From Acetobacter malorum (lineage in GTDB: Bacteria > Pseudomonadota > Alphaproteobacteria > Acetobacterales > Acetobacteraceae), in contig NZ_JOPG01000017.1 in assembly GCF_002153605.1 (NCBI RefSeq), positions 1-64,000 of the forward strand: 64,000 nt of DNA, given 5' to 3'. Each line of letters opens with the position of its first letter. The stretch's first letter is position 1. Below are positions 1,085-47,286 of this stretch, in pieces. The notes under the pieces were generated by a model. The model saw only the letters and a list, made by a program, of their open reading frames with translations. It was not told the DNA's origin and made no database searches. Made by a program: the position numbers and the translations under genes.

Positions 1085-1294
1085 AAGCGCTAGGCTCCCT
1101 TAACCGTTGGCTAATGGTTCATGATATTTTTGACATGGACAGCGTCCGGTTTTCTTCTGAACATTGCGATATCGTATTTACGTGGTGATCGTGCGGCCAC
1201 CAATGGAAAGGATGAAGCGATCTCCCCGTATGGTCGTCTTCCTGGCGCTTTGTGGCGTGTACTGTAAAAATTCTTTCTAAGGCTTTAGGTTTTC

Positions 1295-2941
1295 ATGTTC
1301 CATTCCCAGGTTTTCTCTACACTGCGGCAGCAACAGACAAAAGTGAAGCAGCGTGCAGGCGCAGCCATGCAGTGCGGCACATTGGCTGCACTGATGCTGG
1401 CGTTAGGCGGGGCCTCTGTTCAGGCGGCTACACCGTCTTTGCCGGATGGTCTGACAGAACAGCAGATCGATGATGTTGTCAGCAAGGCGCAGAAAGCTTT
1501 TGATGTGCCCGGTATTGCCGTCGGTGTGATCCATGATGGAAAAATTGTTTTTGCCAAAGGCTATGGTCGTAGAGGAGACAATGAAAAAAGCGAGAAGGTG
1601 GACCCTAATACCCTCTTCGCCATTGGCTCCAACAGTAAGGAATTTACGGCCACCGCGCTGGCAACCCTTGTGGATGAGGGCAAGCTCAAATGGACGGATC
1701 GCGTTAATGACGTCATGCCGGAATTCAAGGTCTCTGACCCGTGGATTACGCGTGAATTCCGTGTGAGTGACCTGCTGACCCATCATAGCGGTATGGGGCT
1801 GGGAGCGGGGGATATGATGCTGTTCTCCCATAGCACCTTCACGCGTAAGGAGGTTTTGGCGGCACTGCCTTATATGCCGTTCACGGGGCGCTTTCGGGCA
1901 GACTATGCCTATAACAACCTGCTGTATGTCGTGGCCGGAGCGCTGGTGGAAAAAATCTCTGGCCAGACATGGGAACACTACGTTCAGACGCATCTGATTG
2001 ATGCAGCAGGTCTTCCGGCATGCCAGAGCACATTTCCGGTCAAGGGGCAGACGGATGTTGCCGCAGGGCAGGGGAGTGACGGTGTTCTGCCGGACCGTGC
2101 TACGCTCGAGCCGGTTGCCGTGGCGCCGGCAGGTGGGGTGTGGTGCAGCGTGAACGGCATGAACCGCTGGGTGCAGACACTTTTGAACGGCGGCAAGACT
2201 GTAGAGGGTCGGAAAATTATCAGTCTTGCTCAGCGTGATGCACTTTGGGCACCGTCAGCACTCATTCCGGTGCCGGACAGCGGCACTAAAACGCAAAGTC
2301 ACTTCCGTGCTTACGGCTATGGCTGGTTTATGGAAGATTTTTACGGCCTGAAACGCGTGTGGCACACAGGGACGATCAGCGGCATGGTCAGCTATGTCTC
2401 CATGCTGCCAGAGAAGAAGAGCGGGCTGGTTGTCCTCACCAATCATTATGCTAACTCCGCAACTGCGGCCATTGCTCTGACCATGAGTTCTCTCATAGCC
2501 ACCGGAAAAAGTGCAGACTGGGTCGCATACTGGCAGGATGAGACTAAAAAAGCGCAGGACAAAGCAGCTAAAGAAGCATCCACCACCGGGCCGGGGTCAC
2601 CTGCGCGGCCCTTCATTTCCGTCCCCGTGTCTGATCTGAAAGACTATGTTGGTCTTTATCACGACGCATGGCGTGGGGATATCCACCTTTCCCTGAAAGG
2701 TAATGACCTTGTCATGACTTTTGGGAAAGCTGATGGCCTGTCAGGCACCTTGTCCGCTCTGCCGCATGATTTGTTTGTAGCGAAGTGGCAGAACCGTGCA
2801 GAGGATGCGGAGGATGACAGCTACGTGCAGTTTGAGCGGGATACATCTGGCAAGGTCACGGGGTTCCATATGCAGGTGGTCGGATCGGACTTCAGCTTTG
2901 ATGCACAGGATCTGCACCCACTCAAAGTTTCCGCTCAATGA
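1295..2941 (+). CDS. Exported serine hydrolase, class C beta-lactamase fold
   Basis: A 548-residue protein of the beta-lactamase/PBP-like family, which includes AmpC, D-alanyl peptidases, D-aminopeptidases and esterases. A hydrophobic stretch ending near residue 44 (AALMLALGGASVQA) looks like a signal peptide, so the enzyme should act in the periplasm or outside. Catalytic motifs are visible: S112-N-S-K115 (SxxK), Y206-N-N208 (YxN) and H357-T-G359 (the KTG equivalent). A C-terminal extension of about 100 residues resembles the DUF3471-type domain often attached to this family. The stop overlaps the next start (ATGA). A later ATG at 1367 would give a shorter signal peptide. Substrate cannot be told from sequence: beta-lactam, D-peptide or ester are all possible. 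Confidence 0.88.
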   Translation: MFHSQVFSTLRQQQTKVKQRAGAAMQCGTLAALMLALGGASVQAATPSLPDGLTEQQIDDVVSKAQKAFDVPGIAVGVIHDGKIVFAKGYGRRGDNEKSEKVDPNTLFAIGSNSKEFTATALATLVDEGKLKWTDRVNDVMPEFKVSDPWITREFRVSDLLTHHSGMGLGAGDMMLFSHSTFTRKEVLAALPYMPFTGRFRADYAYNNLLYVVAGALVEKISGQTWEHYVQTHLIDAAGLPACQSTFPVKGQTDVAAGQGSDGVLPDRATLEPVAVAPAGGVWCSVNGMNRWVQTLLNGGKTVEGRKIISLAQRDALWAPSALIPVPDSGTKTQSHFRAYGYGWFMEDFYGLKRVWHTGTISGMVSYVSMLPEKKSGLVVLTNHYANSATAAIALTMSSLIATGKSADWVAYWQDETKKAQDKAAKEASTTGPGSPARPFISVPVSDLKDYVGLYHDAWRGDIHLSLKGNDLVMTFGKADGLSGTLSALPHDLFVAKWQNRAEDAEDDSYVQFERDTSGKVTGFHMQVVGSDFSFDAQDLHPLKVSAQ

Positions 2942-4119
2942 CAGTTGAGTTTGCCGCTCTCTCCCGCAGGGGTGTTCTAAAAGGGTCTTCTCTTCTTCTG
3001 GCGCAGGCGGCCCTTTCTGCTTGCCAGACGCCGCGTGAGGCTGACAGGTTTGCAAAAGCAGATGTGCTGATCCAGCAGGCGATCAGCAAGGGGGAGTGCC
3101 CCGGCGCGGTCTGGGGTGTGGGCCAGCACGGGCGGCTGATTCATCGTGGCGTCTTTGGCGCGCGCAGCCTCGTGCCCACGCATGAGGCCATGACGTGGGA
3201 CACCGTGTTTGATATGGCGTCCCTCACCAAACCGATGATCACCGCGCTGGCTGTCATGCAGCTTGTGGAAAAAGGTGTGGTGGATGTGGAGGCCCCCGTA
3301 GCTCGCTACCTTCCGCAATTTGCGGCTGCGGGCAAAGGGCAGATTACGGTCCGGCTCCTGCTCACGCATTTTTCCGGCCTGCAACCCGATCTGCCTCGCA
3401 TGCCGGACTGGTGGGGTAAAGCAGCGGCTACGGACCGCATCATGCAGGCTGTTCCCAAAATTGCACCGGGTAGCGGCTTTATTTATAGTGACCTTAATTT
3501 TATTGCCCTAGGTCTGCTTGTTGAAAAACTGACAAGTCAGACACTGGATGTATACGCACAGAACGCCATCCTCAGCCCGCTGGGCATGACGCAATCCGGC
3601 TTTCTTCCGCCTGCCACCGAACAGGCACGTATTGCCCCCACACAGTATGATGAACACGGCAGGATGTTGCGCGGCGTGGTGCATGACCCCACGGCCCGTC
3701 GCATGAATGGCGTGGCGGGCAATGCCGGCTTGTTTTCCACAGCTGAGGATGTTGTTCGCTATGCGCAGGCTTTGCTGGATAAACGGGCTGGGCGCCCCAG
3801 CGTGTTTCCTCTCAGTCGTGCAGCCTTGATAAGGATGACGACACCCCAGCAGCCCGCAGGGCAGAAAAGCCTGCGTGGTTTTGGATGGGATATTGCCTCG
3901 CCTTATGCTTCTCCAAGAGGAGAGCGGTTGTCGCCTCATTCCTTCGGCCATACCGGGTTCACAGGAACATCACTGTGGATTGATCCTGATAATGATTGCT
4001 ATGTTTTCATTCTGACCAACCGTGTGCACCCTAATGGTGGGCAAAGCGTGGTGCATCTGCGGCATGATGTGGCAACGGCGGTCGGGGAGGCTCTGGGGTT
4101 ACCGCAGAGTGTGCCCTAG
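2938..4119 (+). CDS. Serine hydrolase lipoprotein, class C beta-lactamase fold
   Basis: 393 residues, starting inside the stop of the previous hydrolase (4-base overlap), so translation is probably coupled. The N terminus combines a twin-arginine-like motif (SRRGVLKGS, residues 9-17) with a lipobox ending in Cys29 (ALSAC). A Tat-exported lipoprotein is therefore likely. The catalytic SxxK is S95-L-T-K98. The second motif is Y183-S-D rather than the usual YxN, a variant seen in esterase-like members. H338-T-G340 is the third motif. It is distinct from its neighbours rather than a simple tandem duplicate. Function within the cluster is inferred to be D-peptide, beta-lactam or ester hydrolysis. 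Confidence 0.86.
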   Translation: MTVEFAALSRRGVLKGSSLLLAQAALSACQTPREADRFAKADVLIQQAISKGECPGAVWGVGQHGRLIHRGVFGARSLVPTHEAMTWDTVFDMASLTKPMITALAVMQLVEKGVVDVEAPVARYLPQFAAAGKGQITVRLLLTHFSGLQPDLPRMPDWWGKAAATDRIMQAVPKIAPGSGFIYSDLNFIALGLLVEKLTSQTLDVYAQNAILSPLGMTQSGFLPPATEQARIAPTQYDEHGRMLRGVVHDPTARRMNGVAGNAGLFSTAEDVVRYAQALLDKRAGRPSVFPLSRAALIRMTTPQQPAGQKSLRGFGWDIASPYASPRGERLSPHSFGHTGFTGTSLWIDPDNDCYVFILTNRVHPNGGQSVVHLRHDVATAVGEALGLPQSVP

Positions 4120-4137
4120 GAGGGGAAACTCCCCGGA

Positions 4138-4154
4138 CTTAACCTGAGGTTAAG
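4138..4154. terminator. Stem-loop after the second hydrolase
   Basis: CTTAACC-TGA-GGTTAAG is a perfect 7-bp stem 19 bases after the stop at 4119, with a T run (ATTTTTTAAA) further downstream. It could end transcription between the first two hydrolases and the dadA-like gene. The distance of the T run makes intrinsic termination uncertain. Confidence 0.4.
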
Positions 4155-4281
4155 GGGGGCAGGCATTTTTTAAATGGCATGAGCGAATATCCCTTTTTAG
4201 ATTTTCTTCTGAGAAGATCCCGGAACATGGCATGCGCCTGTTTGAACGGGTTACCATGATCATAAGGGGTCGGCGGTTCTT

Positions 4282-5490
4282 ATGGCGGCAAAGCGGACAA
4301 TCACAGTAGTGGGTGGCGGCGTTATTGGCCTGACAACCGCTTACGCGCTCATCCGGGCCGGACATAGCGTGACACTGGTGGAGCGGGAGGATCATGTTGG
4401 CGAGCAGGCCAGTTTTGGCAATGGCGGCCAGCTGAGCTACCGCTATGTCCGTCCTCTGGCGGACGCCGGGATCCCGCTGGAGGCACTCTCATGGATGCTT
4501 CAGGCCGATTCTCCCATTTCTCTCAGGCTCCGGCTGGACTGGAAGCAGTGGCGGTGGCTGGCGGATTTTCTGCTGGCCTGTAATGCCAGAACCAACAAGG
4601 CCAACGCTGCCCGGCTTTTGAAGCTTGCCCTGCAGGGGCAACAGGCCCTGAATCAATGGCGGCAGGACGGGCTGGCGGACTTTTTGTGGCGGAAGCCCGG
4701 TAAGCTGGTTGTGTATCGGAACGCACACAAATTTTCCAAAGCGGCCAAATCTGTCAGTAACCCTCAGCAGGAACAGGTTCTGACCCCGGCGGAATGCGCG
4801 CAGGTGGAACCAGCGTTTGCGGGGCTTGCACCCACATTGGCAGGCGGCATTTTTTCTCCCGATGATGAAGTGGCGGATTGCTACCTGTTTTGTCAGGCGC
4901 TTCTTAAATCCCTTCAGAAAAGCAGAGAGTTTCAGATGGAAAAAGGTAATGCCGCACTGGAGGACGATCAGGGTGGCCGGTGCCGGGTTCGGATCAATGG
5001 GACAGTATGGCAGACGGATCTTGTGATTCTGGCGGCAGGGCTGGCCTCCCGTGAGCTGATGCAGCCTTTGGGTCAAAGACTGCCTCTTTACGGCCTGAAA
5101 GGCTACAGCCTGACCGTGCAGGCGGACCCCGCCGTTCTGCCTGATGTGAGTGTTACGGATTATGACAACCGCGTTGTGTATGCCCGTCTGGGCGATCGGC
5201 TCCGTATTGCCGCCATGGTGGATATTGGCGCGCTGAATGCTTCGCCCGATCCGCGCCGCATAGCCTCATTGAAACATCTGGCGGAGGAAACGCTTCCCGC
5301 TGCCGGGCCTTACGCGTCCGCTATCCCATGGGCGGGGATGCGGCCCGCCACGCCCACAGGGGTGCCTTTGGTGGAGCGGACGCAATGGCGTAACCTGCTG
5401 CTCAATGTCGGGCATGGGGCGTTGGGGTTCACGCTTTCCTGCGGGTCCGCCCTGACAATTCGGGACCTTGTTGAAAAGATGCAGCCTTAA
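4282..5490 (+). CDS. dadA: FAD-dependent D-amino-acid dehydrogenase (DadA-like)
   Basis: 402 residues of the DAO/DadA family. The N-terminal dinucleotide-binding motif GGGVIGLTTAYALIRAGH binds FAD, followed by the ribose-binding acidic end VEREDH and the family signature FGNGGQLSYRYVRPLA. The enzyme would oxidise D-amino acids to 2-oxo acids and ammonia, passing electrons to the respiratory chain. No signal peptide is visible, so it acts on the cytoplasmic side. It abuts the penicillin-acylase gene (1-base gap), linking D-amino-acid oxidation to amide hydrolysis. A GGGG purine stretch at 4266-4269 precedes the ATG. The exact substrate (D-Ala, D-Phe or other) is not determined by sequence. Confidence 0.82.
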   Translation: MAAKRTITVVGGGVIGLTTAYALIRAGHSVTLVEREDHVGEQASFGNGGQLSYRYVRPLADAGIPLEALSWMLQADSPISLRLRLDWKQWRWLADFLLACNARTNKANAARLLKLALQGQQALNQWRQDGLADFLWRKPGKLVVYRNAHKFSKAAKSVSNPQQEQVLTPAECAQVEPAFAGLAPTLAGGIFSPDDEVADCYLFCQALLKSLQKSREFQMEKGNAALEDDQGGRCRVRINGTVWQTDLVILAAGLASRELMQPLGQRLPLYGLKGYSLTVQADPAVLPDVSVTDYDNRVVYARLGDRLRIAAMVDIGALNASPDPRRIASLKHLAEETLPAAGPYASAIPWAGMRPATPTGVPLVERTQWRNLLLNVGHGALGFTLSCGSALTIRDLVEKMQP

Positions 5491-5491
5491 A

Positions 5492-7933
5492 ATGAGACAC
5501 TCCTCCCTGCTCAACCGTCGTCATGTTCTGCTTGGGGGTGTTGCCGCCGGTCTGGCAGGGTTTGGCACCCGCGCTCAGGCCAGGAAAAAGGCACCCTCGC
5601 ACATGGTGGGGCTGGAGGGACTCAACGCCCCGGTCGAGGTGCTGGAGGACCAGTGGGGCGTGCCGCATGTGCGGGCCGCTTCCGTGCCGGATGCGTTTTT
5701 TACAAACGGCTATCTAATTGCGCGGGACAGGCTGTGGCAGCTCGATTTTGAGTATCGGCGGGCGCTGGGCAGACTGGCGGAAGTCTACGGGCCTGAGTGT
5801 GTAGAGTCAGATACGGCAAGCAGGCTTTTCTTGTTCCGGGGTGATGCACACGCAGAGTTTGCAGCACTGCCTCCCATTGTGCAGGCCTGCGCCCGCGCCT
5901 ATGCGGCGGGCATCAATGCCTATCTTGATCGCATCAATAGCGGCGAAGAAAAACTCCCTGCAGAGTTCAATATTTTTTCTTATAAACCGCTTGAATGGGA
6001 TGTTCTGGATCTGGTCCGTATCCGGGCTGAAGCAACGGGAAACACGAAAGCCGAGATCCGCCGCGCCCAACTGGCGGCACATGATGCGCTTGCTTATGAT
6101 GCGCTGATCCAGCCCCTGCGTCCCGCTCATACGCTTACGGTGCCGGACGGGCTGGATGTGCAGGCTGTCACAGAGCAGGATCTGGGCCTATTTGGTGTGT
6201 TGCAGGATGGACCACCCCTTTCCGGTCTGCATGCGGTCTCATCCCCCAGTGAGGGCGATCACCGGCGGGCTAATGAGGGCAGTAACGCATGGGTCATTGC
6301 GCCCACGCGTACAGCCGCAGGACGGCCCATTCTGGCGAATGACCCGCACCTCAGTTTCGGTTCACCCGGGCCACGGCATGTTATTCATCTGACTGCGCCG
6401 GGGCTGGATGTTATTGGTGGCGGTGCTCCGGGTATGCCGGGCGTGATGCAAGGCCATAACGCACATTTTGCTTTTGGGCGCACTAATTTTCATATCGATC
6501 AGGAAGATCTGTTCATCCTGCGCACACACCCCGACCATCCTGATCGCTATTTTCATAACGGGCGCTGGGTGGAAATGGAGCATGAAGAGATCTCCATTGC
6601 TGTGCGCGGTGGCCCTGCGCAAAACGTCACTCTGCGTTATGCGGCACAGGGGCCGGTTGTCTCCGCTGATACGGCACGGAACAGGGCAGTGGCAGTTTCC
6701 GCGACATGGCTCTATCCGGGCGCGAATGGTATGCTCGCCAATATCGGCATCAATCTGGCTAACGACTGGAACAGTTTCCGCAAAGCCCTGAAACTCCATA
6801 CCAGCCCAACCAATTTTACCTATGCTGATACGGCCGGGAATATTGGCTGGCAGGCTGCGGGTGGTCTGCCGGAACGCCGCAACGGCTATGATGGTCTGCT
6901 GCCAGCGCCCGGCGATGGGCGGTATGACTGGAAAGGCCTCCAGCCGCTGGATGCACTTCCCAACAGCTTCAATCCCGCCCGTGGCTGGTTTGGCACATCC
7001 AATGAACTCAATCTGCCGGCAGACTATCCGTATGAGGAACGCTGCGTCAGCTACGAATGGAAAGATCCTTATCGTCACAACCGTGTTGCAGAGGTTCTTC
7101 AGGCGTCTCCTCATGCCACTGTAGCGGACAGCGTGGCGTTGCAGCATGATACGCTCTCTCATCTGGCCTTGTCTGTGGTGCAACAGTTGCCGGAAGTTCC
7201 TGCATCCCTACAGGCAGAAGCCGCGTTGCTGCGCCGCTGGGATGGGCGCGTTGAAGCCACAAGTGCCGCCGCTGCGTTGTATGAGGTGTGGTGGACCCGG
7301 CTGAATAGCCTGTTTTATCAGGCTCTGGTGCCGGAAAATCTGCGTGTCCTTCTGCCACAGCCGCTTAATGCGTCTGTTCTTCTGGATATTTTGCAAAAGC
7401 CCGATAGCCGATTGGGGACGACGCCAGAGGCAGAGCGTGATGCTCTGCTTGTCAGAGCGTTTCAGCAGGCTGTTGAAGAATTGCGCGACCGTCTGGGGCC
7501 GGTGGCGGCTACATGGCAGTGGGGCAGGCTGCATACCGTGCAGTTGCGTCATCCGCTGTGTGCCGTAAACGCTGTGGCGGAAGCCTTTCTGCCCATAGGA
7601 GGAGAAACGGCACGCAGTGGCGGAGACCCCTACACGGTTATGGCGCGCTGGTATAATTCGGATTTATCAGAAACCGCGCGTGCACAGGGCTACAATCCGT
7701 ACGCTGTCACAGGTGGGGCGAGTTATCTGATGGTGTGTGATGTCGGAGCATGGGACAACTCACTGTTCCTGAACTTCCCCGGCCAGTCTGCCTCGCCGGA
7801 CAGCGGGCATTATGCGGATGTCCTGTACCTCTGGCTCAAGGGGGCTATGCAGCCTCTCTCGTTTTCTGCAAACGCCGTTCAGGCAGCAGCCAGACATCAT
7901 GATGTCCTGTATCCAAAAGGAAAAACGCTATGA
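5492..7933 (+). CDS. Penicillin acylase-family Ntn hydrolase, Tat-exported
   Basis: 813 residues from the ATG at 5492; a TTG 24 bases upstream is in frame but lies inside dadA. The N terminus MRHSSLLNRRHVLLGGVAAG carries a twin-arginine signal. The S45 family precursor layout is clear: an alpha chain of about 260 residues, then the autoprocessing site NEG/SNAW with the nucleophile Ser264 becoming the beta-chain N terminus. Downstream are the family motifs NDPHL and GxPG (GAPGMPG). Such enzymes cleave amide side chains of penicillins, N-acyl homoserine lactones or acylated peptides; PvdQ, a pyoverdine-maturation acylase, is a relative. It overlaps the next gene by 4 bases. The acyl specificity is unknown. 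Confidence 0.9.
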   Translation: MRHSSLLNRRHVLLGGVAAGLAGFGTRAQARKKAPSHMVGLEGLNAPVEVLEDQWGVPHVRAASVPDAFFTNGYLIARDRLWQLDFEYRRALGRLAEVYGPECVESDTASRLFLFRGDAHAEFAALPPIVQACARAYAAGINAYLDRINSGEEKLPAEFNIFSYKPLEWDVLDLVRIRAEATGNTKAEIRRAQLAAHDALAYDALIQPLRPAHTLTVPDGLDVQAVTEQDLGLFGVLQDGPPLSGLHAVSSPSEGDHRRANEGSNAWVIAPTRTAAGRPILANDPHLSFGSPGPRHVIHLTAPGLDVIGGGAPGMPGVMQGHNAHFAFGRTNFHIDQEDLFILRTHPDHPDRYFHNGRWVEMEHEEISIAVRGGPAQNVTLRYAAQGPVVSADTARNRAVAVSATWLYPGANGMLANIGINLANDWNSFRKALKLHTSPTNFTYADTAGNIGWQAAGGLPERRNGYDGLLPAPGDGRYDWKGLQPLDALPNSFNPARGWFGTSNELNLPADYPYEERCVSYEWKDPYRHNRVAEVLQASPHATVADSVALQHDTLSHLALSVVQQLPEVPASLQAEAALLRRWDGRVEATSAAAALYEVWWTRLNSLFYQALVPENLRVLLPQPLNASVLLDILQKPDSRLGTTPEAERDALLVRAFQQAVEELRDRLGPVAATWQWGRLHTVQLRHPLCAVNAVAEAFLPIGGETARSGGDPYTVMARWYNSDLSETARAQGYNPYAVTGGASYLMVCDVGAWDNSLFLNFPGQSASPDSGHYADVLYLWLKGAMQPLSFSANAVQAAARHHDVLYPKGKTL

Positions 7934-9189
7934 AACTTAAAGTCTGTTCCGCTTTGGCTCTGGCGTTTTTCAGCACAGCCGCTCTGGCGCAAACCCCGAC
8001 TGATAAAAAGATGGATGCCGTATTGACGCATGGTGAACGCCTGCCTCTGGCGGCGCTGGCTGCCGTCAAGCTGGAACATGGTCAGCCTGTTTACCAGTAT
8101 TATGGCGGTTTTGCGCGGCGTGATGGCGCACAAACTGTTCCGGTTAAGCAAGAAACCCTCTTCCGCATTGCGTCCATTTCCAAAGTGGTGACTACCATCG
8201 GGCTTATGGAACTGGTCGAGCAGGGCAGGGTGAATCTGGATCATGACGTCTCGGAGTATCTTGGCTTCTCGCTGCGCAATCCTGATTTTCCGACAACCCC
8301 CATTACTGTGCGGATGCTTTTAAACCACACTTCGAGCCTTCGGGATGGTGAGGTTTATTTTTTGCCACCCGGCAAGTCGGTAAAGGATTTTTTTGATAAG
8401 ACCCATAAAGCTGGTAGTCAGGACTATCATTTTTCGTTTCATGATGGTCATGCACCCGGCACATATTTTACCTATTGCAATCTGGCCTACGGACTTGTCG
8501 GGACCATAATCGAGCGGGTCAGCGGGGAGCGGTTTGACCGCTATCAGAAACACCATGTTCTGGACCCGTTGAAGATTGACGGGGGCTATAACGTCGCGGA
8601 GCTTGAGCATCCGGAGCGTGTGGCCACGCTTTATCAGCATGTTCCTTCTGGCTACGAGGCCACGGTGGATAGCCAGCCTCTTAAAAGCTGGAGCAAAGAG
8701 GCTCTCGCGTCCTACAAAATTGGCAGCAATGGAAGTATGTTTTCTCCACAAGGTGGCCTTCATATTTCGCTGCAAGGGCTGACGCGTCTCGCACAATTCA
8801 TGATCCAGCGCGGCACGCTGGACGGCGTCAGGCTTCTGGCGCCGCAAAGCATCAAGGTGATGGAAACCCCCACATGGACATTTAATGGCCAGAACGGCGT
8901 CTGCCCATATCCCCTAAGCGCTTATGGCCTGAGCTTGTTCACGCTGACAGGCACAAAAGACACCAATGGCAAGCCTGCCATCCCGTATGTCGGGTATCAG
9001 GGGGGGCTACACGGCCATCTGGGGGATGCATACGGGCTACATTCCGGCTTCTGGTATAATCCGAAAAACGGAGAGGCCTATCTGTTTGCGGCGGGCGGTT
9101 ACCCTGATTATGATCAGGAGAGGCCCGGCCAGTATTCTTCTTTCTCTAGAGTAGAAGAAGAAATTTTCACAACTCTGGCTGGGAAATAA
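7930..9189 (+). CDS. Exported serine hydrolase, class C beta-lactamase fold
   Basis: 419 residues with a clear signal peptide (MKLKVCSALALAFFSTAALA). Motifs: S82-I-S-K85, Y182-C-N184 and H371-S-G373, the last replacing the canonical KTG/HTG. It begins within the stop codon of the acylase and ends 2 bases before the peptidase gene, so dadA, the acylase, this gene and the S9 peptidase are very probably co-transcribed. It is the third class C-type hydrolase of the cluster. A D-aminopeptidase, esterase or beta-lactamase role would all fit; sequence alone does not decide. Confidence 0.87.
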   Translation: MKLKVCSALALAFFSTAALAQTPTDKKMDAVLTHGERLPLAALAAVKLEHGQPVYQYYGGFARRDGAQTVPVKQETLFRIASISKVVTTIGLMELVEQGRVNLDHDVSEYLGFSLRNPDFPTTPITVRMLLNHTSSLRDGEVYFLPPGKSVKDFFDKTHKAGSQDYHFSFHDGHAPGTYFTYCNLAYGLVGTIIERVSGERFDRYQKHHVLDPLKIDGGYNVAELEHPERVATLYQHVPSGYEATVDSQPLKSWSKEALASYKIGSNGSMFSPQGGLHISLQGLTRLAQFMIQRGTLDGVRLLAPQSIKVMETPTWTFNGQNGVCPYPLSAYGLSLFTLTGTKDTNGKPAIPYVGYQGGLHGHLGDAYGLHSGFWYNPKNGEAYLFAAGGYPDYDQERPGQYSSFSRVEEEIFTTLAGK

Positions 9190-9191
9190 TC

Positions 9192-11267
9192 ATGATGATC
9201 CGTTCTGTCTTTGCCGCAGCCCTTCTGGCCGGTGGTTTATACTCAGCTTCTCCCGCAAGCGCGGCACTGCTTGATGAGGCCGGAGCCCGGCACCAGATCA
9301 CGGCACTTTTGTCTCTGCCATTTGCGACAGATCTCGTCGGGGCCAGCAATGCAAGCCGCTTTGCGTGGGTGGAAAAGCGCAATGGGGTGCGGAATATTCT
9401 GGCAGCGGATGCGTCAGGCGCGCCGAAAGCCCTGACCCACTTCACGCAGGATGACGGAACCAATTTATGGGGGGTAGTCCTTTCCCCTAATGGGAAGACA
9501 TTAGCCTATGTGGAGGGCGGCGACCCGGAGTTTCCGGACGCAGCGTCTCCCAATCCTCATCTTTCAGCATCGGGAACGCATCAGAGCGTGAATGTGGTGC
9601 TGGAAGGTGGCAGGCAAATGCGGATGGGGGAGGGCTGGAATCCTACCTTCTCGCCGGATGGGATGACGCTGGCGTTCTCGCACAAAGGCTCTTTGTTTCT
9701 GGCACCCGTTGGCAAAATGGCGAAAGAAGTCATGACCGTGCCGGGGAGCCTGACATCACTCCAATGGGCACCGGATGGCGCGTCGCTGGTCTTCACGCTG
9801 GACCGTGGGAGCCATGCGCTCATCGGACTATGGCACGTCAAAACGGCGACCATGACAGTTCTGGCTCCAGCGCTTGGGCAGGACAGTCTGCCAACATTTT
9901 CTCCGGATGGCCACTCTGTGGCGTTCGTGCGGGAACACAGACCACTTACTGATAAGAAGAATGAAAAAGGCTCGTTCTGGTCTTTTCATGTTTATGATCT
10001 GTCCACGAATACGGACCATGTGGTGTGGACCCCGCCTGCCGGGACTGGCGCACGGTTTGCTGTGCCGGAGGGGAGTGGCTTACTATGGTCTGACAATGCG
10101 CATCTGCTCTTCCCGTGGGAAGGCAGCGGATGGATGCGGGTTTGCACCGTGGCGGCATCGGGCACAGGAATTCCGACCTGTCTGACGCCGGATAAAGCGG
10201 AAGTCTCAGCCTATCGGCTATCTCAGGACAGAAAAACTCTTTTTTACACAAGTAATGTCGGGAATGTGGATGTCTGGCACGCATGGCGTCAGGCTTTGGA
10301 TGGATCTTCACCGCAACGCCTGACACACAGTGAGGACATGGAAACAGATCTTGCTGTGGCCGGAGGCAAGGTGGGCGTGATGGCCGCCAGCGTCACACAG
10401 ACAGCGCATCCGGTGGTGGTGGGAGCAGAGGGTGAAAGTGCTTCTCTCGTTTCCCCGCAAGCGCCGTCAGATGTGCATTTCGTGACACCGCAGGTAGTTG
10501 TGTTCCACAGCGCAGATGGCATGGAGGTGCACGGGCAGCTCTTTGTTCCAGAGGGAGACGCAAAAACGCCTCGTCCTGCATTGGTATTTGTGCACGGAGG
10601 CCCGCACCGCCAGACGCTCCCTGCGTTTAATGGCATGGACTATTATTCCAACGCCTATGCGATGAACCAGACTCTGGCGGCGCAAGGCTATGTGGTGTTG
10701 TCTGTCAATTACCGCAGCGGGACGGGCTATGGCGAGGCGTTCCGGAATGCTCCTGAAACTGGCGGAGGTGGAGCCAGTGAGTATCGGGATGTTTTTGCTG
10801 CGGCCACGTATCTTAAGACCAGAACTGATATTGATCCCGCCCGCATCGGGATCTGGGGCGGCAGCTGGGGCGGTTACCTGACGGCACTCGCTCTGGCCCG
10901 CAATAGTGACGTCTTTGCTGCCGGCGCTGATTTTCATGGCGTACATGATATGATTGACCCTGACACATACGGTCTGTCTCCCGAGGAAAACAGGAAAGCG
11001 CACGATGTAGAGTGGCAGTCCTCTCCGGCGGCGGATATTGCCCACTGGCATGCACCGGTTCTGCTTGTGCATGGTGATGATGATTATAACGTGGAATTTG
11101 AACAATCGACTCTTCTGGCAAGGATGTTGTCAGAACAGGGCGTGCCATATGAGGAACATTCCTTCCCGAATGAGCGGCACACCTTTCTCCGCATGCAGGA
11201 TTGGCTGACGGCGTATATGTGGATGGATACATTCTTTGACCGCACACTGGCGTCCCATAAGCCCTGA
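9192..11267 (+). CDS. Exported prolyl oligopeptidase-family (S9) peptidase
   Basis: 691 residues. An N-terminal signal peptide (SVFAAALLAGGLYSASPASA) is followed by a beta-propeller of WD40/PD40-type repeats (for example WNPTFSPDGMTLAFS and LPTFSPDGHSVAFV) over about residues 50-410. A C-terminal alpha/beta hydrolase domain follows. The triad is Ser558 (GGSWGG), Asp631 (HGDDDYNV) and His663 (ERHTF). This is the dipeptidyl/acylaminoacyl peptidase architecture that clips short peptides. It sits 2 bases after the preceding hydrolase. With dadA and the acylase it points to breakdown of a peptide-like substrate in the periplasm. Confidence 0.9.
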   Translation: MMIRSVFAAALLAGGLYSASPASAALLDEAGARHQITALLSLPFATDLVGASNASRFAWVEKRNGVRNILAADASGAPKALTHFTQDDGTNLWGVVLSPNGKTLAYVEGGDPEFPDAASPNPHLSASGTHQSVNVVLEGGRQMRMGEGWNPTFSPDGMTLAFSHKGSLFLAPVGKMAKEVMTVPGSLTSLQWAPDGASLVFTLDRGSHALIGLWHVKTATMTVLAPALGQDSLPTFSPDGHSVAFVREHRPLTDKKNEKGSFWSFHVYDLSTNTDHVVWTPPAGTGARFAVPEGSGLLWSDNAHLLFPWEGSGWMRVCTVAASGTGIPTCLTPDKAEVSAYRLSQDRKTLFYTSNVGNVDVWHAWRQALDGSSPQRLTHSEDMETDLAVAGGKVGVMAASVTQTAHPVVVGAEGESASLVSPQAPSDVHFVTPQVVVFHSADGMEVHGQLFVPEGDAKTPRPALVFVHGGPHRQTLPAFNGMDYYSNAYAMNQTLAAQGYVVLSVNYRSGTGYGEAFRNAPETGGGGASEYRDVFAAATYLKTRTDIDPARIGIWGGSWGGYLTALALARNSDVFAAGADFHGVHDMIDPDTYGLSPEENRKAHDVEWQSSPAADIAHWHAPVLLVHGDDDYNVEFEQSTLLARMLSEQGVPYEEHSFPNERHTFLRMQDWLTAYMWMDTFFDRTLASHKP

Positions 11268-11344
11268 AGGGCAACAGCGCTCCCTTGAAACGCCCTATGC
11301 GGCGTATGCGGGGACGCATGAGTGATAAGGTTGGGAGTAAGCTG

Positions 11345-12259
11345 ATGAAAGCACTGAAAATTTCAGGTGTTCTGGTAAAAGCGTTTTTAGCTGGAGTGGT
11401 CCTTATGTCTCCTCTGGCCAGCGCGGCATCTCCCGCCTTCGGGGAACCTCTGGCCCAGATCATGGCGGAAACTGTCAAAAACCAGCCCGGCCATTTTGCT
11501 GTTTATGCCGCCCGGAGCGGGCAGCCGCCTGATGTGTGCCTGAACTGTGATGATCTGATTAACGCTGCCAGCACTATCAAACTGTTTGTGCTTGATGCAG
11601 CCTATGATGCCTTTACAAAAGGCACCCTGCATCCAGAAGATACTCTTACGGTTCACAACCATTTTCATTCTCTGGTGGGGAAGGGCAGCTTTGCGCTCGA
11701 GCAGAAAGAGGATTCTTATGACCCTCTTTACGCGCAGGCAGGCAAGGCAGTGCTTGTTTCAGAACTCCTGCGGGTGATGATCCAGTATAGCAGTAATCTG
11801 GCGACCAACCTGATGATTGAAAAGCTGGGCGTGCTGCCAATTCGTGCGATTGTAAAAGCGCAGGGCCTCAACGGTGTTGTCTTCGGCCGTATGATTGAGG
11901 ATTTTGATGCAAACGATCAGGGTATTCGTAATCGGGTTTCAGCACGCGGATTGGGCGCATTTTTGCAAAAGCTGGATAACGGCCAGATTGTCGGGAAGAC
12001 GCAAAGCCAGAGCATGATCCAGATTATGCTGGGGCAAAAATTTAATGACATCATTCCCCCCGGTCTGCCCGCAGGGACACCCGTGGCGCATAAGACCGGC
12101 TGGGTTCAGGGTGTGCGGAATGACGCCGCTCTTGTCACGCTACCGGATGGCAAACGCTATATTCTGGTCGTGCTGACATCTGGCTTGCCGGATGAACAGG
12201 CGGGCATCAGGGTGCTGAACACGCTGTCTCATCAGGCCTATGCATATTTTCTGAAATAG
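11345..12259 (+). CDS. Class A beta-lactamase-like serine hydrolase
   Basis: 304 residues from the ATG at 11345, which has GGGAG at 11333-11337 upstream and gives a good signal peptide (VLVKAFLAGVVLMSPLASAA). An in-frame start at 11285 would add an unlikely basic leader. Class A features: S76-T-I-K79 (SxxK), S149-S-N151 (the SDN position with Ser for Asp) and K250-T-G252 (KTG). A clear Glu166-type ExxLN omega-loop motif is not obvious, so this may be a beta-lactamase-fold hydrolase that does not confer resistance. It is the last hydrolase before the TonB receptor. It differs in class from the three AmpC-like neighbours, arguing for functional complementarity rather than duplication. Confidence 0.82.
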   Translation: MKALKISGVLVKAFLAGVVLMSPLASAASPAFGEPLAQIMAETVKNQPGHFAVYAARSGQPPDVCLNCDDLINAASTIKLFVLDAAYDAFTKGTLHPEDTLTVHNHFHSLVGKGSFALEQKEDSYDPLYAQAGKAVLVSELLRVMIQYSSNLATNLMIEKLGVLPIRAIVKAQGLNGVVFGRMIEDFDANDQGIRNRVSARGLGAFLQKLDNGQIVGKTQSQSMIQIMLGQKFNDIIPPGLPAGTPVAHKTGWVQGVRNDAALVTLPDGKRYILVVLTSGLPDEQAGIRVLNTLSHQAYAYFLK

Positions 12260-12402
12260 AGTCAAAGATGTAAAACAGAGTTTAAAAAACTTTTTAATAT
12301 TATTGCATTTAACATTTTTCGGTCAGGCTGGGTTCTGCGTTCCGGCCACCCTCCTTCACGCTCATTTTGTCTCATATTTGAACAAGATTTGATCGGGGGA
12401 AT

Positions 12403-12420
12403 GTGACATTAAACTGTCAC
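12403..12420. promoter_or_regulatory. 18-base inverted repeat upstream of a TonB receptor
   Basis: GTGACA-N6-TGTCAC (12403-12408 and 12415-12420) is perfect and lies about 100 bases before the receptor start, in the 264-base gap 12260-12523. It is unlike a Fur box. Its shape is that of a dimeric regulator operator; the regulator is unknown. Nothing else was recognised in the gap apart from AT-rich DNA after 12280. Confidence 0.4.
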
Positions 12421-12523
12421 TTTAACGTAATAAAATCACAACACACATGGCAGAACAAGACGATAGTCTGCGCAGCGTTATCTAACCCCCTATTGGGAGC
12501 CTCGGTATGAGGGATCGCGCTGT

Positions 12524-14914
12524 ATGAAACAGAATAAACTGCTGCTTCTGACAACATGTATGAGTTCTTTACTGTTTCATTATGCCAAGGCTGAAACTGT
12601 TTCAGCCGCCACCCAGCCCGGAAAGGTAGAACAGGCAAGCCCTAAACCCGCAGCCAAAAACAAAACGGCGGCGGCTCCCAAAACGGTAAAAGCAACATCC
12701 ACGCAGGATGATAAGGCTGAGTCCATCGTCGTCATGGGTGCTGGCGCTGCGCGTGAGACGCAAAAGCTCTCCCACATGGCTCTGCAACAGGTGGTTCCCG
12801 GTACCAGCCCCCTGAAGACCTTGTCGAAACTGCCGGGCGTCATGTTTACGTCATCAGATGCGCTGGGGTCTTATGAATGGTCCCAGCAGATCATTATTCG
12901 TGGGTTTGATCAAAGCCGCCTCGGCTTTACCATGGATGGTATTCCTTTGGGCAATCTGGCCTATGGGAACGATAATGGCCTTTCCATTGGCCGTGCCCTG
13001 CAAACAGAAAATAACGGAACGGCGACACTGGCACAGGGGGCAGGTTCCGTCGGGGTTGCTGCCTCCAATGACCTTGGTGGCGCGCTTGAATTCACGTCTA
13101 TTGACCCGACTGAAAAGTTTGGTGCGGATGTGGCTGCCACGGGTGGTTCCTACGGCACATGGCGTACGTTTGCCCGCGTTAATAGCGGCACGCTGCCCGG
13201 TGGTGGCCGCCTGTATGTGTCCTATGATTATCAGGATGCCAACAAGTGGAAAGGCAAGGGCATTCAGCAGCAGCAGCAGGCCAACGCCAAATTCGTGCAG
13301 CCGCTGGGTGATAAGGTCAAGCTGACGCTGTTTGGAGATTACAGCCAGCGCGCCGAAAATGATTATCAGGATATTTCAAAAGAGCAGATCCGCACAATCG
13401 GTTATAAGCTCGATAATATTACCAATAACTATGGTCTGGCGAAAGATATTGCCCGCGCTTATCAGAATGGCACGGCTTTTCCGGCTGGGATTAAGGATCA
13501 GGATCAGTCCTACTACAACTCTGCCGGTCTGCGTGAGGACGTGCTGGGGTATGGCAAGCTGGATTTCCGTCTGACTGACCGCCTGAAAGGTTCTGCAACC
13601 GTCTACGGCCATACCAATACAGGGGAAGGGATTTACGCTACCCCCTATACGCCAACCCCGGAGGCGCTTGGTGGCTCTCCGCTTTCCGTCCGTACAACGG
13701 AATACGATATTCATCGTGAAGGCTTTATTGGTAGCCTGTCTTACGAAATTGGACACCACACCATTGAGGGTGGTTTCTGGTTTGAAAATAACGATTTTGA
13801 ACAGGCACGTCGCTTCTATCCGCTGAGCGAAAGCGGGTATACGGGCAGTTCCGTTCACTGGTTCCGGGGTAATTCCTTCGCAACCCAGTGGCAGAGTGCG
13901 TTCAATACCAAAACCTATCAGTTCCATTTGCAGGATACCTGGCAGATTACCCCGGCGCTGAAGCTGAATTACGGCTTTAAATCGCTGGTGGTGGATAACC
14001 GTGGTCGGCAGCTGGAAGGGAACGAGATGGGCGTGCCGGTGCCCACTAACACTTATGCCGGCGGTTCTATTACCTCAGCCAATGGCTTCCTGCCGCAGAT
14101 TGGCGCTAACTATCGTATCAATCGCCATAATGAAATTTTTGCAGATTTTGCAAGAAACATGGCGGCTTTTGATAACTCCTCCACTGGTGCTACCAGCCCG
14201 TTCGCCATGACAAGTGCGGCCTATGCCGCGACGAAAAATTCTCTGCGCCCGGAAATGTCCTATAGTGAGGAAATCGGTTATCGCTTCCATAATCGTCGTA
14301 TTCAGGCATCTCTGACCGGCTATTACATCGAATTTGAAAACCGGCTTCTTTCCATTACACCCAACGCAACCAACAACGTGCAGGGTATTCCCAGCATTCT
14401 GGTCAATGGTGGTGGTGTAACAGCCCGTGGTATTGATGCCGCATTCAACTATCACTTTACTGATAACTGGTCCCTGTATGTGTCTTACGCCTACAATCAG
14501 TCGACCTATAATGATGATCTGACAACGGGTGGCGTTACCTACAACACACGCGGTAAGAGCGTGGTGGCCATGCCGCGTAATCTGGCAAACGTTCAGATCA
14601 GTTATGATGATGGGTCAATCTGGGGTAATTTCGGCATGCAGTATCAGGGCCGCCGGACATATACCTATACGAATGACCAGTGGATCAAACCGAACGATAT
14701 CTTTAACCTGAACGTGGGTTATCGCTTCCATAGCCAGAACTGGGCGCTACGTGGTCTGGATATGCAGATTAACGTGACCAACCTGTTTAATAAACGCTAT
14801 GTGGCCACAGTAGGGAGTGCGGGCTTCCGCCCGACCGATCCGACCGGCAGCCTGCAAACGCTTCAGGCAGGTTCCCCGCGGATGGTGTTCTTTACCGTGC
14901 GTAAGCATTTCTAA
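12524..14914 (+). CDS. TonB-dependent outer-membrane receptor
   Basis: 796 residues. A signal peptide (LLLLTTCMSSLLFHYAKA) is followed by a Lys/Ala/Thr-rich linker and a plug domain (KTLSKLPGVMFTSSDALG then QIIIRGFDQSRLGFTMDGIP). A 22-strand barrel runs to a C-terminal aromatic end (RMVFFTVRKHF). The receptor takes up a ligand too large for porins using energy from ExbB-ExbD-TonB. Placed between the peptide/amide hydrolases and a phospholipase C, with no Fur box nearby, it may import the hydrolase substrate or products rather than an iron chelate. The ligand is unknown. Confidence 0.9.
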   Translation: MKQNKLLLLTTCMSSLLFHYAKAETVSAATQPGKVEQASPKPAAKNKTAAAPKTVKATSTQDDKAESIVVMGAGAARETQKLSHMALQQVVPGTSPLKTLSKLPGVMFTSSDALGSYEWSQQIIIRGFDQSRLGFTMDGIPLGNLAYGNDNGLSIGRALQTENNGTATLAQGAGSVGVAASNDLGGALEFTSIDPTEKFGADVAATGGSYGTWRTFARVNSGTLPGGGRLYVSYDYQDANKWKGKGIQQQQQANAKFVQPLGDKVKLTLFGDYSQRAENDYQDISKEQIRTIGYKLDNITNNYGLAKDIARAYQNGTAFPAGIKDQDQSYYNSAGLREDVLGYGKLDFRLTDRLKGSATVYGHTNTGEGIYATPYTPTPEALGGSPLSVRTTEYDIHREGFIGSLSYEIGHHTIEGGFWFENNDFEQARRFYPLSESGYTGSSVHWFRGNSFATQWQSAFNTKTYQFHLQDTWQITPALKLNYGFKSLVVDNRGRQLEGNEMGVPVPTNTYAGGSITSANGFLPQIGANYRINRHNEIFADFARNMAAFDNSSTGATSPFAMTSAAYAATKNSLRPEMSYSEEIGYRFHNRRIQASLTGYYIEFENRLLSITPNATNNVQGIPSILVNGGGVTARGIDAAFNYHFTDNWSLYVSYAYNQSTYNDDLTTGGVTYNTRGKSVVAMPRNLANVQISYDDGSIWGNFGMQYQGRRTYTYTNDQWIKPNDIFNLNVGYRFHSQNWALRGLDMQINVTNLFNKRYVATVGSAGFRPTDPTGSLQTLQAGSPRMVFFTVRKHF

Positions 14915-14937
14915 AACTGTTTTTTACGTTCTGCTTT

Positions 14938-16977
14938 ATGTCTTCTGTGACGGATAATTCCATGCTTCGTGCCCCTAATCGTCGCCAGTTTCTAAAGTTT
15001 GGTGCGGCTGCAACAGCGGGGGCCGCCCTGCCGGAAAACCTCAAACGGGCGCTCGCCGTTGCGCCCAATGCGGTAACCGGCACCATTCAGGATGTGGAGC
15101 ATGTGGTTATCCTGATGCAGGAGAACCGCTCGTTTGATCATTATTTCGGCTGTTTGCAGGGCGTGCGCGGGTATGGAGATCCGCGTGCAGAAAAACAGTC
15201 TGATGGAAAAAGCATTTTCGCGCAGCCTGATGGAAAAGGCGGCCATGTGCTGCCATTCCTGTTTAACACCGCACACACGTCCAGCGCCTGTCTGGCCAGT
15301 CTGGACCATAGCTGGAAAAACACTCAGGCGGAGTGGAACAACTGGGATACATGGGTTCCGCATAAAACGCCCATGACGATGGGGCATTTCACCCGTAAGG
15401 AAATCCCTTATTACTACGCTTTGGCCGATGCGTTTACGATTTGTGATGCCTATCACGCGTCTATTTTCGGCCCGACAAACCCCAACCGCCTCTATTTCTT
15501 CACCGGCACCAACGGGCTGGCCGTGGGCAATGCCGGCAAGCAGGCCGTAGAGAATGTTGATGATGGCAACTGGTCTGCCGACATGGCGCATGACCGGGCC
15601 GATTTTAAACCCTTTGACTGGACGACCTATCCTGAAAAACTTCAGGAGGCAGGCGTATCCTGGAAAGTGTATCAGGAATACGATAATTTTGGTGATAACC
15701 CTCTGGCGTCTTTTGCAGCGTTCCGCACCATCGGGAAGGACACATGGGCGTATCGCGGGGCGCGCAGCATTGTAGACGGCTCTGGCCCTGCGGATATGCA
15801 GGATACAGAAGGCCGCTACCTGATTGCCGCGTTTGAGCGCGATGTGGCGCAAGGCACACTGCCGCAGGTCTCATGGATCGTGCCGCCCACCGCCCTGAGT
15901 GAACATCCCAACGCGCCGCCGGGCTACGGGGAATATCTGATTTCTCAACTGATGGATGTGTTTGTCCGCCATCCGGATGTGTGGGCCAAAACAGTCTTTA
16001 TTCTCAATTATGATGAAAATGACGGCTTTTTTGACCATGTGCCCCCTCCTGTTCCGGCACTCAATGCGCAACAGGGGGCCTGCACGGTCTCAACAGATGG
16101 GGAAAGTTATTATGGCCAGCCCGTCGGCCTAGGTCCTCGCGTGCCTGCTCTGGTTATTTCCCCGTGGACCAAGGGCGGGTGGGTCAATTCACAGGTGTTC
16201 GACCACACGTCCGTTTTGCGTTTTCTGGAAACACGCTTTGGCGTGTCATGCCCCAACATTACACCGTGGCGACGCAGCGTGTGTGGGGACATGACGTCAC
16301 TTTTCGACTTTGCTCAGACTAACCGCCAGTGGGAAGCATCCCTGCCGCGCACGGATACCTATCTGGCAGACACACGCAAATCCTGCGCCTTGCCCAAACC
16401 GGTTGTGCCTGCCCGGCAAACCATGCCTAAGCAGGAAGCCGGGCAGCGTCCAGCCCGCGCTCTGCCCTATGTGCTGCATGCTAACAGGCTGTCTCATGGA
16501 GCGCTGGAGCTTGCGAATGAGGGCACGCAAGGTGCTGTGTTGCGCATCAGGGATGGTTATACAGCTCGCCATTATACCCTTGCAGCAGGCCAGAGTCTGT
16601 CTGTGCCTGTGGAGGCCAAAGCGGGGCAGTCCTTAACAGTTCATGGGCCGAATGGGTTCTTCCGGGCGTTTTATGGTCAGGACTTGCCGGAGTGTCGTCT
16701 TCGTTACGATCCTGCCCAAAGCAACATCTTTCTGTCCCTGCGCCATGCGGGGCAGGCTCCCCGGATGCTGCGGATTGAAGACGGTTATACTCACGTGCGG
16801 CATACCGTCACTGTGCCACCAGATGCAGAGACTGCAACATCATGGCTGCTTGCTGCATCTGACAACTGGTATGATCTGGCTGTGTATGATGCGCATGACG
16901 GCACTCTGCTCATGCAATTTGCCGGACATATGGAAAATGGAAAACCCAGCCGCACAGATCCGCATATGGGGCGGTAA
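14938..16977 (+). CDS. Phosphocholine-type phospholipase C, Tat-exported
   Basis: 679 residues of the phosphoesterase/phospholipase C family (non-haemolytic PlcN type). The Tat motif NRRQFLKFG is near residues 14-22. The catalytic core starts with EHVVILMQENRSFDHYFG, continues through a Thr-containing FGPTNPNR block and a FVDHxPPP-like FFDHVPPPVP block, and ends about residue 480. Two C-terminal repeats characteristic of bacterial PLC follow (LANEGTQGAVLRIRDGYT and LRIEDGYTHVRHTVTV). It lies 23 bases after the receptor and is probably co-transcribed. It would cleave phospholipid headgroups outside the cell, providing phosphate, choline or diacylglycerol. An ATG at 14962 is an alternative start. 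Confidence 0.85.
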   Translation: MSSVTDNSMLRAPNRRQFLKFGAAATAGAALPENLKRALAVAPNAVTGTIQDVEHVVILMQENRSFDHYFGCLQGVRGYGDPRAEKQSDGKSIFAQPDGKGGHVLPFLFNTAHTSSACLASLDHSWKNTQAEWNNWDTWVPHKTPMTMGHFTRKEIPYYYALADAFTICDAYHASIFGPTNPNRLYFFTGTNGLAVGNAGKQAVENVDDGNWSADMAHDRADFKPFDWTTYPEKLQEAGVSWKVYQEYDNFGDNPLASFAAFRTIGKDTWAYRGARSIVDGSGPADMQDTEGRYLIAAFERDVAQGTLPQVSWIVPPTALSEHPNAPPGYGEYLISQLMDVFVRHPDVWAKTVFILNYDENDGFFDHVPPPVPALNAQQGACTVSTDGESYYGQPVGLGPRVPALVISPWTKGGWVNSQVFDHTSVLRFLETRFGVSCPNITPWRRSVCGDMTSLFDFAQTNRQWEASLPRTDTYLADTRKSCALPKPVVPARQTMPKQEAGQRPARALPYVLHANRLSHGALELANEGTQGAVLRIRDGYTARHYTLAAGQSLSVPVEAKAGQSLTVHGPNGFFRAFYGQDLPECRLRYDPAQSNIFLSLRHAGQAPRMLRIEDGYTHVRHTVTVPPDAETATSWLLAASDNWYDLAVYDAHDGTLLMQFAGHMENGKPSRTDPHMGR

Positions 16978-17865: not shown

Positions 17866-17877
17866 CGTAACGTTTCC

Positions 17878-44366: not shown

Positions 44367-44371
44367 GCGGG

Positions 44372-47269: not shown

Positions 47270-47286
47270 GATTTTTCTCCCCGCCT

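Follow-up and report, generated by a model that had tools for sequence, protein, structure and literature searches.

A conserved Pac–DadA gene cluster of Acetobacter malorum is probably a unit for scavenging peptidoglycan stem peptides

Near the start of a 64,000-nt stretch of Acetobacter malorum DNA (NZ_JOPG01000017.1, positions 1–64,000; the whole stretch is hereafter the window), genes for serine hydrolases of the beta-lactamase fold, a relative of penicillin acylase (Pac) and a D-amino acid dehydrogenase (DadA) stand in one run, which raises the question of which compound such a set of enzymes takes apart. The preliminary description of the window had named beta-lactams, D-peptides, peptidoglycan fragments and acylated non-ribosomal peptides as candidates. 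Comparison with related loci indicates that the run, from lysR through blaC1, blaC2, dadA, pac, blaC3 and an S9 peptidase gene to a class A-like hydrolase gene, is probably a unit for scavenging the stem peptides of peptidoglycan, an option with strong support from gene context in two alphaproteobacterial groups. Context thereby favours the peptidoglycan fragments and, more loosely, the D-peptides among the proposed substrates, while family cut-offs and the D-succinylase-like character of the acylase speak against beta-lactams. The window genome is G000 among 37 genomes of the genus; labels beginning with G, C and L denote genomes, contigs and loci.

The genes of the locus were found in the places and families (LysR, three PF00144, PF13354, DadA, N-terminal nucleophile (Ntn) acylase, S9) first given for them:

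191..1084, + strand: lysR, a LysR-type regulator (Pfam PF03466/PF00126)
1295..2941, + strand: blaC1, a predicted secreted PF00144 serine hydrolase with DUF3471, a candidate D-peptidase or amidase
2938..4119, + strand: blaC2, a PF00144 hydrolase with a start that by eye resembles a twin-arginine translocation (Tat) signal or lipobox; the nearest NCBIfam model is PBP4B, below its cut-off
4282..5490, + strand: dadA, a divergent DadA paralogue, flavin adenine dinucleotide D-amino acid dehydrogenase (NCBIfam NF001933)
5468..7933, + strand: pac, an S45 Ntn amidohydrolase, D-succinylase-like, with a Tat-like start by eye (PF01804, 623 bits)
7930..9189, + strand: blaC3, a predicted secreted PF00144 serine hydrolase
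9192..11267, + strand: a predicted secreted S9 (DPP4/DPP5-like) serine peptidase (PF00326, 132 bits)
11285..12259, + strand: a class A-fold serine hydrolase, possibly of the D,D-peptidase type (PF13354)

Most of these genes abut or overlap, with distances of −4, 162, −23, −4, 2 and 17 bp in order from blaC1 to the class A-like gene, followed by 264 bp to a TonB receptor gene at 12524. The tight spacing described earlier for dadA to the S9 gene is present, but the run begins at blaC1, with a single 162-bp gap ahead of dadA. Neither promoter-like sites (12 in the window, 11.3 in shuffled sequences) nor terminator-like sites (18 and 17.2) were in excess, and the gene spacing is therefore what points to a single transcription unit. 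Sec-like signal sequences were judged by eye to be present in blaC1, blaC3, the S9 peptidase and the class A-like protein, and Tat-like ones in Pac and blaC2. The ratio of nonsynonymous to synonymous substitution rates (dN/dS) against A. cerevisiae was 0.03–0.10 for the nine genes compared (lysR, blaC1, blaC2, dadA, pac, blaC3, S9, receptor and phospholipase). Seven of them are genes of the locus, which are under strong purifying selection; the class A-like gene lay outside the set.

For comparison, the best 80 of at least 583 loci with Pac homologues were used, which are not an even sample. Markers were counted by tblastn with seeds taken partly from the counted loci, so that L101, L083, L097, L086 and L087 match themselves. 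Within the genus, Pac was found at 71% identity or more in 8/37 genomes, including the window genome. In the 11 Acetobacteraceae loci, dadA adjoins pac throughout; at least one class C gene is likewise present in all 11, lysR in 10, the S9 gene in eight, a linked receptor in seven and the class A-like gene in four. The preliminary description had made conservation of the genes together its test, and this was borne out for a core of lysR, dadA, pac and class C genes (dadA–pac in 11/11 loci), though with a patchy distribution in the genus. Several locus genes of L036 and L037 (G010) are split by frameshifts, which may be sequencing errors or decay.

The neighbours of this core are informative by position. 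MurQ (33/37) and the SSS symporter (34/37) are near-core in the genus, so their mere presence says little and adjacency to the locus is what counts. In A. cibinongensis (G001, L081) lysR is divergent from genes for an SSS symporter, MurQ (354 bits, cut-off 168), NagB, GH20 and OprB, and in A. indonesiensis (G004, L080) from SSS, NamZ (244 bits, cut-off 27), MurQ and NagB. G008 has a 93% lysR, divergent from SSS, on a small contig without pac, and NamZ-MurQ-NagB on a further contig, the link to pac being cut by contig ends. An SSS gene follows the S9 gene in G031, where MurQ and NamZ adjoin a receptor–phospholipase pair on another contig. In 2/4 Gluconobacter loci, genes for a receptor, an S13 PBP4 (219 bits in L083, cut-off 108) and NamZ come after the S9 gene; S13 and a receptor are near the locus in Asaia (L087), and GH20 and NagB in Brytella (L086). 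The window genome itself has MurQ-NamZ-SSS and a GH20 on contig C40. Two further neighbours were seen. Gluconobacter aidae encodes a pair of GH92 enzymes upstream of dadA-pac (L083:2730-8420), and a NagX-like membrane protein is encoded next to the locus receptor in L036 (G010, 128 bits) and L029 (G008, 139 bits; cut-off 480 for both) and, by similarity, in L079.

Related pac genes of sphingomonads stand in a similar setting. In a tree of the window and 75 of the 80 loci (a filter on stops and unread letters removed the other five), the Pac proteins of Acetobacteraceae and sphingomonads grouped in a single clade with support 1.0, and within it those of the Acetobacteraceae were nested with 0.99. 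The 36 sphingomonad loci contained receptor (27), class C (26), D-aminoacylase-like (24), DgcN (23), DgcA (23), LysR (22), SDF symporter (21), S13 (20), AmpG-like (14), MurQ (5), NagA (4) and NagB-II-like (4) genes, and 25 of them had one or more of ten markers for peptidoglycan, amino sugars or D-glutamate (D-Glu). Sphingobium soli L101 passed the cut-offs (in brackets) for DgcA with 430 (400), DgcN 524 (480), PBP4 220 (108), MurQ 328 (168) and NagA 260 (226), and fell below them for AmpG with 322 (350) and NagB-II with 299 (430). By chance, DgcN would lie beside pac in about 1.2% of cases per locus, and it was observed there in 17/28 sphingomonad genomes (28 of the 36; a manual count gave 65 matches, excluding three small fragments); the genomes are related and not independent, so a formal P is not to be taken literally. 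None of the 33 loci of distant Pac homologues had any of the ten markers, and the tally was zero for D-aminoacylase, DgcN, DgcA, S13, AmpG, MurQ and NamZ, a count in which single seeds could miss far relatives and in which 19/33 loci reached 20 kb, against 31/36 for sphingomonads. What these 33 loci did contain was SDF in three, and class C, LysR, receptor, SSS, GntR and phospholipase genes in one each.

The central enzyme, Pac, is a full-length S45 protein nearer D-succinylase than the penicillin and cephalosporin acylases. Its best solved relative is D-succinylase (7ea4/7eby, 509 bits over the full length), followed by a penicillin G acylase at 204 bits, and a profile of eight Pac relatives scored 775 bits for D-succinylase against 264 for penicillin G acylase. 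The motif GSN at 271–273 is invariant across these eight relatives, and Ser272, which coincides with the start of the aligned beta chains in solved relatives, is predicted to be the catalytic N-terminal Ser. Arg303 is also invariant in the eight; D-succinylase has Arg at this position as well, and the aligned penicillin G acylase has Thr. Two D-residues of the stem peptide have a free carboxylate, the D-alanine (D-Ala) of the tetrapeptide and the D-Glu behind L-Ala, and they resemble the N-acyl-D-amino acids cut by D-succinylase. That enzyme, from Cupriavidus sp. P4-10-C, shares with Pac its full length and Arg303; unlike the role proposed for Pac, it has been used on N-succinyl-D-amino acids, and the available part of its report (PMC7431475) describes no cell-wall role.

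The window DadA passes NF001933 only barely (387 bits, cut-off 383), and two other dadA-like genes of the genome score higher (678 and 649 bits). All three genes above the family cut-off in G000 (C2:108370, C1:88052, C27:4300) were compared, and the locus copy is the most divergent. One of the other copies bears a stop flag, considered as a sign of a possible pseudogene, which is probably its own end; the window dadA bears one of the same kind. The LysR of L101, which stands beside DgcN/DgcA, matches the window lysR at 159 bits (next best gene of the window genome 83.5; compared in one direction only). The DgcN-DgcA pathway thus resembles the locus in that each of its genes adjoins a related pac in 23/36 sphingomonad loci and its LysR is closest to the window LysR, and differs in that DgcN has no match in any of the 37 genus genomes, the locus holding a DadA paralogue instead. 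From this absence and from dadA beside pac in 11/11 loci, we infer that DadA stands in for DgcN-DgcA in acetic acid bacteria. In the portions of the two reports available, dgcN is the key gene of a D-Glu racemisation pathway (PMC12363236), and expression of a Raoultella dadA rises during growth on D-Glu (PMC6131576).

A more specific proposal follows, which is offered tentatively and is less likely than not: Pac would be the first of a novel class of enzymes that degrade peptidoglycan. As an Ntn hydrolase of the penicillin-acylase fold, it would release D-residues of the muropeptide stem, acting as an L-Ala–D-Glu endopeptidase or as an L,D-carboxypeptidase between meso-diaminopimelate (mDAP) and D-Ala. 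Its partner in acetic acid bacteria would be a D-Glu-type DadA in place of DgcN-DgcA. In a 1,3 cross-link, from L-Ala to mDAP, the amine side is the D-centre of mDAP. Pac might also open such cross-links, which occur in Acetobacteraceae according to the parts of two papers that were accessible (PMC10864386, PMC10727944).

All four beta-lactamase-fold hydrolases have an SxxK motif and pass the broad Pfam families PF00144 or PF13354, and among the best 25 NCBIfam families listed for each, none reached a beta-lactamase cut-off. Against the class C model NF033085 the three PF00144 proteins scored 89.5, 48.3 and 47.2 bits (cut-off 415), and against the class A model NF033103 (bla_class_A) the class A-like protein scored 85.7 (cut-off 200). 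The model nearest to blaC2, PBP4B (YfeW, NF002968), gave 133.6 bits, below its cut-off of 385. PDB neighbours of blaC2 include esterases and D-Ala-D-Ala carboxypeptidases, and those of blaC3 the esterase 7pp3 and the alkaline D-peptidase 4y7p. The class A-like protein has the motifs STIK, SSN and KTG, and its best PDB match is Tll2115 (2j7v), which we take to be the D,D-peptidase PBP-A. At the position that presumably corresponds to the general-base Glu166 of class A beta-lactamases it has Ile, where 2j7v has Leu and the variant 2j9o Glu; the residue after this Ile is Glu, and the stretch is weakly aligned. The S9 protein has neighbours in the DPP4 family and the motifs GGSWGG, HGDDDY and ERH (GxSxGG, Asp and His motifs); it was also considered as a lasso-peptide isopeptidase and rejected as such (NF033523, 89.6 bits, cut-off 400).

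For uptake, a dedicated receptor had been assigned to the locus; its gene and one for a phospholipase lie downstream, and both are present:

12524..14914, + strand: a TonB receptor, judged a separate module
14938..16977, + strand: a phosphocholine-specific phospholipase C, judged a separate module (TIGR03396, 797 bits, cut-off 580)

In the 23 of 37 genus genomes covered by the comparison, this receptor has relatives of about 70% identity in G003 and G011, both without pac, and relatives of only 32–38% in the pac-bearing G001, G004 and G008. On these grounds it was rejected as a partner of the locus, and the supposed dedicated receptor and the phospholipase look like another module outside the conserved unit. 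The pair also lies on contig C169 of G031, away from pac. It stands directly after the locus in G034, G009 and G010 and adjoins NamZ/MurQ in G031, so a looser tie to the locus may exist.

A different TonB receptor, of about 960 aa, lies upstream of blaC1 in five of the seven other pac-bearing genus genomes (G034, G009, G010, G004 and G008; domains were checked in G034, with receptor domains in L025, and the other genomes were assigned by similarity), and is absent upstream in G001, G031 and the window. Its site corresponds to 1085..1294 of the window, which aligns with A. cerevisiae L078 up to 1190 and resumes at 1237, skipping about 3.07 kb of L078 with the receptor gene. The best full-length relative in the window genome has 37% identity, and one partial stretch 40%. 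The gene is read as lost from the window strain, and the genes downstream of it show no sign of decay; we infer that the strain still takes up the substrate. Within the stretches examined, a linked receptor was found in 7/11 Acetobacteraceae and 27/36 sphingomonad loci.

Taken as peptidoglycan scavenging, the pathway would run as follows. The TonB receptor of the relatives would carry muropeptides or free stem peptides to the periplasm. There, the beta-lactamase-fold hydrolases may take off D-Ala and split amide bonds within the stem, and the S9 peptidase may cut bonds of L-residues. Pac would cut bonds with a D-amino acid with free carboxylate on the amine side, the candidates being those between L-Ala and D-Glu and between mDAP and D-Ala, and the DadA paralogue would oxidise the freed D-amino acids to keto acids at the inner membrane. 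The sugar part would be used through NamZ, GH20, the SSS symporter and MurQ, encoded beside the locus in some relatives and on another contig in the window strain.

Among the other explanations, the uptake and breakdown of beta-lactams by a beta-lactamase and then an amidase is suggested by the Pfam family names Beta-lactamase and Penicillin amidase, and is the least probable of all. The class C and class A scores lie far under the NCBIfam cut-offs, so the true beta-lactamase and penicillin amidase of a penicillin catabolic pathway were not found together here; Pac and the nearest structures of the hydrolases, the Ile at the presumed general-base position (though Glu is next to it, in a weakly aligned stretch) and the gene context all point elsewhere. 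Scarcely more probable is that the secreted esterases and peptidases are unrelated to one another, a loose neighbourhood that shares an operon by history only. This would account for the way in which blaC1, blaC2, blaC3, the class A-like gene and the S9 gene come and go among relatives, and PF00144 folds do include esterases, but it fits poorly with the persistence of lysR, dadA, pac and class C genes, with dN/dS of 0.03–0.10 and with overlapping open reading frames.

A broader role in scavenging N-acyl-D-amino acids or D-residue peptides from other sources, such as plant N-malonyl-D-amino acids or non-ribosomal peptides, and without any particular tie to peptidoglycan, is unlikely, yet deserves more weight than these two. 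It agrees with the D-succinylase-like Pac, with the D-aminoacylase-like gene in 24/36 sphingomonad loci and with a window locus that holds no peptidoglycan-specific gene, and DadA oxidises D-amino acids generally. The recurrent neighbours S13 PBP4, AmpG-like, MurQ, NamZ, GH20, NagB and D-Glu genes, on the other hand, fit muropeptides. Several observations do weigh against peptidoglycan stem peptides as the substrate. In the window strain the upstream receptor is gone, MurQ, NamZ, SSS and GH20 are off the window on C40, and no S13 was found in the genome. None of the ten markers was seen in 6/11 Acetobacteraceae and 11/36 sphingomonad loci within the stretches examined, A. indonesiensis, one of these six, having markers just beyond, and two of the 25 marker-bearing sphingomonad loci (L091, L107) rely on weaker DgcN/DgcA matches of 44–51% identity. 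The cluster is patchy in a genus in which MurQ is near-core, and D-succinylase is not strictly D-specific, according to the part of its report available (PMC7431475).

Loci for the use of N-acetylmuramic acid (MurNAc) provide the closest known counterparts; we take YbbC to be NamZ and AmiE to be a PF00144-type protein. The E. coli murQ-murP-yfeW (PBP4B) operon and the B. subtilis murQRP-amiE-nagZ-ybbC cluster are precedents (PMC5061867, available in part), to which the Acetobacter locus would correspond in its proposed use of MurNAc or muropeptides, in a blaC2 whose nearest NCBIfam model is PBP4B and, in some relatives, in adjoining MurQ and NamZ. The Acetobacter locus differs in the TonB receptor of the relatives, SSS in place of a phosphotransferase system, Pac, DadA, S9, additional serine hydrolases and LysR control, and the window strain encodes its MurNAc genes on a separate contig. 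AmpG-type recycling, as in Caulobacter, uses muropeptides, and an AmpG-like gene occurs in 14/36 sphingomonad loci (below cut-off in L101); it is cytoplasmic and without MurQ in Caulobacter (PMC13046382, available in part), whereas the Acetobacter locus appears to act in the periplasm and to be catabolic. The same idea of gene context led in 2012 to the prediction, in marine bacteria, of TonB receptors for peptidoglycan or N-acyl-D-amino acids, with no Pac-DadA unit described in the part of that paper available (PMC3400609). In the literature covered, which lacks most subscription journals and was available in part, no link of penicillin acylase or D-succinylase to muropeptide, peptidoglycan, D-glutamate or TonB roles was found, nor one in work on peptidoglycan scavenging. 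The murQ/PBP4B and amiE-type loci are already known; an Ntn hydrolase in such an enzyme role is possibly new.

Elsewhere in the window, an encapsulin gene (Linocin_M18, 311 bits) lies beside a DyP-type peroxidase at 17071–18903 (−); the pair looks like an encapsulated peroxidase and is 96–97% identical in G034 and G009. A nitrate assimilation block at 40437–49005 (−) comprises a molybdopterin-flavodoxin-reductase fusion, a NirB-like protein with a Rieske domain and an Alginate_exp-type porin. A large Hint_2/AIDA adhesin-like protein is encoded at 59373–62138 (+), and G009 has a protein of similar appearance, judged by eye, upstream of its lysR (L027:822-3197).

If the peptidoglycan reading is right, a clade of S45 'penicillin acylases' from Acetobacteraceae and sphingomonads, represented by 44 tips in the tree, would acquire a function, and it would become clear why many of its pac genes are accompanied by genes for a TonB receptor, D-aminoacylase, PBP4 and D-Glu use. 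A likely false lead would also be removed, since such genes are easily misread as beta-lactam resistance or penicillin breakdown. For acetic acid bacteria, the locus would represent a route to feed on bacterial walls.

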